Source: a virus. Taken from it: a DNA stretch of 40,569 nt. How positions within the stretch are numbered: position 1 is the first letter of the stretch; each line of letters opens with the position of its first letter. A model generated the notes under the pieces. It saw only the letters and a list, made by a program, of their open reading frames with translations. It was not told the DNA's origin and searched no databases. The position numbers were made by a program, and so were the translations under genes. The DNA lies in the IMG/VR virus record IMGVR_UViG_3300034167_000574, positions 1-40,569 of that record. One strand, written 5' to 3'. This document shows positions 7,753-8,450 of the stretch, in pieces.

Positions 7753-7824
7753 TGCGTGAAAGTGTAAATGGTTGCATACAGGTCTCATAAACCTAGAGGG
7801 GTGGTTCGAATCCACGACACGCTA
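7753..7824 (+). tRNA. tRNA-Met-like (anticodon CAT)
   Basis: Cloverleaf by eye: acceptor TGCGTGA / ACACGCT (five inner pairs good, outermost and innermost mismatched), D-arm GTGT/GCAT with GG in the loop, anticodon arm AGGT/ACCT with loop CTCATAA (anticodon 7786-7788), T-arm GTGG/CCAC with loop TTCGAAT, discriminator A at 7824. Base 8 is A instead of the usual T, and CCA is not encoded (CTA follows). The deviations leave open a degenerate tRNA or a tRNA-like end of the upstream structured RNA. The unpaired 1-72 position is reminiscent of initiator tRNA. Confidence 0.6.
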
Positions 7825-8034: not shown

Positions 8035-8395
8035 GGGGGTGACTGGTTTTGACAGGTCATTAGTAAGTAGTACAATCAGCCAGAGAGATAACTGTAAACT
8101 AAGGTGAATTTAATAAATGACAACAAAGTAATTTCGTTAGATGTTGACCAAGTTAACGCTAACATGAGCAAAGTTTTTTCATTGATTAACTCTAATGTCG
8201 AAGAGCTAGAAATAGCTGCGTAGTAAGCATTAACAAGATTTCTTAGTTAGATTAAACTAAGTGGTGGTTTTTTCAACTTCACAGTTGACCCTAGAGTACA
8301 CCTGTAGACTCTTTAAATAAGTATGGGAACAAAGCTGTATAAATTGTATTATTGACCATGGTTTGGACAGGAGTTCGACTCTCCTCACCTCCACA
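8035..8395 (+). ncRNA. ssrA: tmRNA (ssrA) with extended tag frame
   Basis: The 5' end GGGGGTGACTGGTTTTGACA is the hallmark tmRNA start. The 3' end has T-arm AGGAG-TTCGACT-CTCCT (8369-8385) and acceptor CACCTCC (8386-8392), which pairs with GGGGGTG (8035-8041). CCA is not encoded. Length (~360 nt) is typical. The tag frame ends GCT GCG TAG TAA (8215-8226), giving the expected Ala-Ala end (EELEIAA). That frame is open for 41 codons from 8098, whereas tags are usually about 10 residues. By distance from the 5' end the tag could start near 8116 (NDNKVISLDV), or near 8158 (ANMSKVFSL). A GCTA-GAAA-TAGC hairpin covers the tag end, as hairpin H5 does in known tmRNAs. It would rescue stalled ribosomes and tag their products for proteolysis. 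Confidence 0.92.
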
Positions 8396-8402
8396 AATGT
8401 TT

Positions 8403-8441
8403 GTTATTATGGACAATATGTTATCTATTGTCTATAATAAC
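8403..8441 (+). terminator. 16-bp stem-loop after the tmRNA
   Basis: Arms 8403-8418 (GTTATTATGGACAATA) and 8426-8441 (TATTGTCTATAATAAC) pair over 16 bases with one G-T wobble around a 7-nt loop. It begins 8 bases after the tmRNA end and probably defines the 3' end or a processing site. There is no T-run, so it is not a standard intrinsic terminator. Confidence 0.6.
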
Positions 8442-8450
8442 GCACATTAA

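Follow-up and report, generated by a model that had tools for sequence, protein, structure and literature searches.

tmRNA tags are generally regarded as short degrons. The stretch of viral DNA analysed here, hereafter the window (IMG/VR record IMGVR_UViG_3300034167_000574, positions 1–40,569; 40,569 nt), carries a tmRNA gene with an open tag frame of unusual length, which raises the questions of where translation of the tag would resume and whether a tag of this size would serve only to mark proteins for destruction.

Identification and Predicted Fold of the tmRNA Gene

The gene was matched by the Rfam model RF00023 at positions 8035–8396 (85.1 bits, E = 9e-32, model positions 1–374, gathering score 47), and ARAGORN called a tmRNA at 8035–8394, with ends in agreement with Rfam. 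The locus, whose tmRNA ends had been called unmistakable in the preliminary description, is thus a genuine one-piece tmRNA gene. Its parts are listed in Table 1.

Table 1. Features of the tmRNA locus in the window (positions of the window).
Feature	Position	Strand	Basis
One-piece tmRNA gene (ssrA), Crassvirales-like phage	8035–8394	+	Rfam RF00023, ARAGORN
Acceptor stem H1, 5′ strand GGGGGUG, including G3 of the G3-U70 alanine identity pair	8035–8041	+	RNAalifold
Helix H2, 5′ strand	8066–8079	+	RNAalifold, many pairs with compensatory changes
PK1 first stem CAG/CUG and loop AGAGAUAA	8081–8094	+	Covarying stem
Frame-setting UAAAU directly 5′ of the likeliest resume codon, U at −5 and A at −4	8114–8118	+	UA at −5/−4 in 55/55 relatives
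Tag reading frame, 34 codons from the likeliest resume codon GAC: DNKVISLDVDQVNANMSKVFSLINSNVEELEIAA	8119–8220	+	Family conservation of frame and start, codon substitution test
Core QVNANMSKVFSLI, family motif QxxANMxxV, then hydrophobic residues	8149–8187	+	77/78 tags; pN/pS 0.18
Tandem stop codons TAG TAA	8221–8226	+	Sequence
Hairpin 3′ of the tag, where the reduced pseudoknot region starts	8242–8261	+	RNAalifold, compensatory changes
Helix H2, 3′ strand	8334–8352	+	RNAalifold
T arm AGGAG-UUCGACU-CUCCU	8369–8385	+	RNAalifold with compensatory changes; Rfam alignment
Acceptor stem, 3′ strand CACCUCC and discriminator A, U70 at 8390	8386–8393	+	RNAalifold consensus fold
Strong near-perfect hairpin immediately 3′ of the tmRNA	8396–8448	+	−22.2 kcal/mol, z −7.9

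The consensus fold was obtained with RNAalifold on 20 relatives. Compensatory changes were found in 23 of the 46 predicted pairs and demonstrate the tmRNA fold at the level of comparative evidence. The G3-U70 GU pair (columns 3/513) was retained in all 20 relatives, and compensatory changes run along H2, the long helix linking the two halves of the molecule. The first stem of PK1 covaries, with the variants CCG/CGG and GCAC/GUGC in relatives; a second PK1 stem was not identified in the consensus fold of the 20 relatives. The hairpin that follows the gene may act in processing or termination. A tRNA-Met (CAU)-like gene lies shortly before the tmRNA, at 7753–7824 (+); it scores 28.1 bits against an Rfam cut-off of 29 and is missed by ARAGORN; a tRNA-Met was called at the equivalent place in the relatives L007, L016 and L022.

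Open Tag Frame and Position of the Resume Codon

The frame 8098–8220 had been noted as stop-free and as ending in Ala-Ala before TAG TAA, and the sequence confirms this. By base composition alone, the chance of 41 open codons is about 0.03 for a single sequence, so the open frame of one sequence is only suggestive and relatives are needed. In a motif-free survey, tags were read solely from the PK1 block and a UAA..G signature. The survey gave 78 distinct tags of 24–49 residues, most commonly 35, all without a stop in frame and 77 of them with the core Q-x-x-A-N-M-x-x-V, most of the loci having been fetched via RNA patterns and some first via tag patterns. Because all 78 tags picked by the upstream RNA are open and 77 contain the core, the openness of the frame goes beyond chance; stops in the frames of relatives, which would have spoken against a long tag, were absent from the family.

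In E. coli, the resume frame is set by an A at −4 preceded by U, and 12 nt separate PK1 from the resume codon (PMC2481249). This rule was not used in placing the resume codon in a set of 55 distinct tags; nevertheless, U(−5)A(−4) precedes the assigned codon in 55/55 (0–14 in other registers), and the codon lies 11–13 nt past a conserved GGTGA at the end of the PK1 block. In 15 of these 55 tags, an in-frame stop is among the three codons that precede the resume codon, and conservation of the frame starts at a G/D codon despite frame-breaking indels upstream. The host tag GENNYALAA is read from a GGC resume codon in the equivalent position. Judged from the window by itself, 8116 and 8119 both agree with the UA rule, and the family comparison favours GAC 8119–8121, which is therefore the most likely resume codon and would give a tag of 34 residues. 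The earlier proposal of a tag of about 35 residues from AAT 8116 holds for the length of the tag and should probably be moved by one codon for its start. A long tag beginning where tags should begin is supported by the comparative evidence, which also indicates that the open frame is the one translated and which places the resume codon at GAC 8119 rather than near 8185–8200, where a tag of normal length would have begun.

A tag of more ordinary length would result from resumption at GTT 8143 (26 residues), the start in the ARAGORN output that favours such a reading, or at GCT 8158 (21 residues), an alternative raised in the preliminary description. However, the starts given by ARAGORN differ among near-identical genes, with tag lengths from 18 to 31 residues; GTT 8143 falls within the tag and was rejected because of this inconsistency. 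The U(−5)A(−4) rule and the 11–13 nt spacing fit the upstream site only, which leaves GCT 8158 unsupported, and the frame is conserved from the G/D codon onward across upstream indels. An ordinary-length tag is accordingly considered extremely improbable. No tmRNA was called by ARAGORN in L119, L128, L130, L135 and L161. Hence, this standard annotation tool misplaces or misses the tmRNA genes of the long-tag family.

Distribution of the Long-Tag Family

The terminase large subunit encoded in the window belongs to phrog_6681, and by DNA at the tmRNA locus the closest named relative is Cellulophaga phage phi14:2, a member of Steigviridae in the Crassvirales. When IMG/VR was scanned with the tmRNA 5′ end, 37 stretches were obtained, and further scans using the tag or the PK1 region yielded many more. 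Besides this phage, the carriers comprise many relatives that infect Flavobacteria-like bacteria. Their terminases are mostly about 24–33% identical to that of the window, so the core is either old or has moved among phages. The PK1-region pattern was absent from 84,980 species genomes, and the type therefore looks phage-specific at that stringency. Within the phages, the search for the core motif found it in the tmRNA gene only, and ten flavobacterial genomes gave only chance-level matches to it. A literature search, whose coverage left out most subscription journals, found no paper on the long-tag family.

In the peptide alignment of the 55 distinct tag DNAs, all but L129 have the core Q-[VIL]-x-A-N-M-x-x-V with hydrophobic residues after it; the stretch ahead of the core and the linker behind it are variable, and nearly all of the tags end in -AA. 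The exception, L129, has the RNA context of the family, but its 49-residue tag at 2559–2705 (−) is without the ANM core (GNIDNDAQEVVDINYTFSTPMMVVHKGERKSVSPSQDLSWGTRQVAIAA). A divergent tmRNA in L161 (from 2767) lies outside the survey pattern; it has a 50-residue tag and is located directly before an array of 24 called tRNA genes. The tags of L154, L157 and L163 combine the N-part of one subfamily with the C-part of another, joined at the core as if recombined. L123 and L152 belong to one 105-kb phage contig (IMGVR_UViG_3300025853_000041) that contains two tmRNA genes with different long tags. A second tmRNA-like match in a Flavobacterium genome (L266, 32 bits), inspected as raw sequence only, was below the cut-off and was left out.

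Cultured members of the family include phi14:2, with a tag of 38 residues, and phages Fpv1–Fpv20 of Flavobacterium psychrophilum, with tags of 35 residues. The Callevirus phages (Pervagoviridae) phi38:1, phi40:1 and Calle have 30-residue tags ending in VGV; that of phi38:1 is GNNTNAVNAQIEANMEAVNAILNLEVAVGV and contains no K or R. The tmRNA is mostly unannotated in cultured members, including Fpv1–Fpv20. In Calle_1 (L293, 653–1012), the public tmRNA feature begins 52 bases inside the gene, and in phi38:1 (L294, 683–856) and phi14:2 (L002, 3907–4318) 'hypothetical protein' calls overlie the tmRNA.

Selection on the Conserved Core

The pN/pS ratio was estimated with Nei-Gojobori-type counts on nearest-neighbour pairs of equal length, rather than on all pairs, to lessen dependence. 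The tag frame gave a value of 0.59 (Fisher p = 2e-5), compared with 0.77 and 1.18 for the other two frames, and the 13-codon core gave 0.18 (p = 3e-16); these p values are approximate, since simple counts were made on related sequences, so more weight should be placed on the contrast between frames. The V, N, L and F codons vary freely within the core. This free synonymous variation points to the peptide as what selection keeps, and the substitution pattern demonstrates strong purifying selection on the core at the protein level.

The nucleotide sequence of the region appears to carry a second constraint. A 4-bp pairing between GCNA, at the A-N codons, and UNGC close to the final alanines is present in 77 of 82 tags, compared with a mean of 44 and a maximum of 57 in 300 synonymous resamples. 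An extra RNA constraint on the tag region is thus likely, and part of the nucleotide conservation of the tag may reflect this short RNA stem. Taken further, the pairing could suggest that the region is conserved as RNA structure and that the open frame is a by-product. Yet amino acids in the core are fixed where synonymous sites vary, tag length varies, purifying selection is clear in frame 0 only and the stem comprises just 4 bp, which makes this explanation quite improbable. The invariance of the methionine in the aligned tags could also mean that its conserved ATG in the ANM motif is the start codon of a separate microprotein, about 15–30 residues long. This is very improbable, as Q, A and N are equally invariant, so that conservation begins upstream of the methionine, and the frame is maintained from the resume codon onward.

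Tag End, Predicted Helix and Proposed Role

The window tag ends in EIAA, and most of the 82 distinct tag DNAs end in -AA; across the family the ends are xAA, xVA or VGV. The -AA end argues that most members keep a ClpXP-type degron with something added upstream of it. The degron is not universal, since Callevirus tags end in VGV. An AF2 model of the tag contains a helix at residues 9–33, with a mean pLDDT of 93 over residues 11–20, although AF2 tends to call isolated peptides helical, and the helical moment is only marginally above that of shuffled sequences. On this model, the core is likely an amphipathic helix that binds a partner.

Searches for relatives of the tag gave nothing convincing in Pfam, PHROGs and PDB sequences and none in flavobacterial genomes, and a Foldseek search of the AF2 helix against viral models gave no match. 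No gene family was adjacent to the tmRNA in all loci. SmpB is not encoded in any of the 16 phage records searched; the host protein would therefore have to serve, and we infer that the phage tmRNA uses it; the host alanyl-tRNA synthetase presumably serves the phage tmRNA as well.

The preliminary description had suggested that a long phage tag might engage another protease or adaptor, or function as a small protein. Marking proteins for destruction is probably not all that the tag does, because it is about four times the length of the host tag and has a strictly conserved inner motif. Maintenance of this 13-residue motif by strong selection across divergent phages, with a variable degron end, implies a second job for the tag. 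The explanation that we favour, with somewhat more confidence than doubt, is that the phage tmRNA works and carries a tag of two parts, a conserved helical docking element and, in most members, an -AA degron. The phage-owned tmRNA, presumably expressed during infection and charged with alanine, would enter stalled host ribosomes together with host SmpB. Translation would resume at GAC 8119, and Ala plus the 34-residue tag would be added instead of the Ala plus 9 residues of the host. The hydrophobic-Ala-Ala end would work like an ordinary ClpXP-type degron, leading to degradation of the tagged chains, and the amphipathic helical core QxxANMxxVxxIL upstream of it would dock on a specific partner, for which our best guess is either a phage protein or a host protease, chaperone or adaptor. 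The handling of rescued chains in infected cells would then be dictated by the phage.

Alternatively, the long tag may not be mainly a degron and may instead supply a functional helical module, a C-terminal exon attached in trans that would serve localisation, inhibition or assembly in the course of infection. In favour of this, the ends are much less conserved than the core, tags between 24 and 50 residues long are built around the core, and N-parts and C-parts recombine around it (L154, L157, L163); given the VGV end of Callevirus tags and the conserved core, degradation may not be the main purpose. Almost all other members, however, keep the hydrophobic-Ala-Ala end as a degron would, and we consider this alternative rather unlikely. 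The broader proposal that phages of Flavobacteriia append a conserved helical effector module, a trans-acting C-terminal exon, to unfinished chains, where it binds a specific host or phage partner, is put forward only tentatively. The cultured carriers phi38:1, phi14:2 and Fpv1–Fpv20 make the implied second job open to direct test.

Comparison with Known tmRNA Systems

The phage tmRNA resembles the host ssrA of Flavobacteriia (RF00023) in its tRNA-like domain with G3-U70 and in H2. The phage resume codon is G[GA]N, determined by UA at −5/−4, and corresponds in place to the GGC of Flavobacteriia hosts, and both the host tag and most phage tags end in -AA. In contrast, PK1 is shorter and the 3′ pseudoknot region is reduced in the phages, and their tags of 24–50 residues with a conserved inner core are about four times longer than the 9-residue host tag (GENNYALAA-like).

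Long phage tags are not wholly new, because Bxz1-type mycobacteriophages (Bixzunavirus) carry a tmRNA with a 25-residue tag, ATDTDATVTDAEIEAFFAEEAAALV, which was checked here. That tag is shorter and unrelated in sequence, has no QxxANM core and belongs to phages of a GC-rich actinobacterial host. Bacillus phage G also has a one-piece tmRNA, whose tag of 13 residues, AKLNITNNELQVA, is ordinary. According to PMC9382460, the tmRNA of the Mollicute Mesoplasma florum likewise has a longer-than-usual tag, which is read by Lon, and the Mollicutes thus provide a precedent for tag extension accompanying a change of protease. Mollicute tags, however, belong to bacteria without active ClpXP and end in NYAFA, not in -AA; this C-terminal motif is not found in the phage tags (xAA, xVA, VGV), and no sequence similarity to them was seen. 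Known tag lengths range from 8 to 35 residues (2021 review, PMC8012679). The window tag, with 34 residues by the best placement, lies at the top of this range, and the family, reaching 49–50 residues, extends beyond it.
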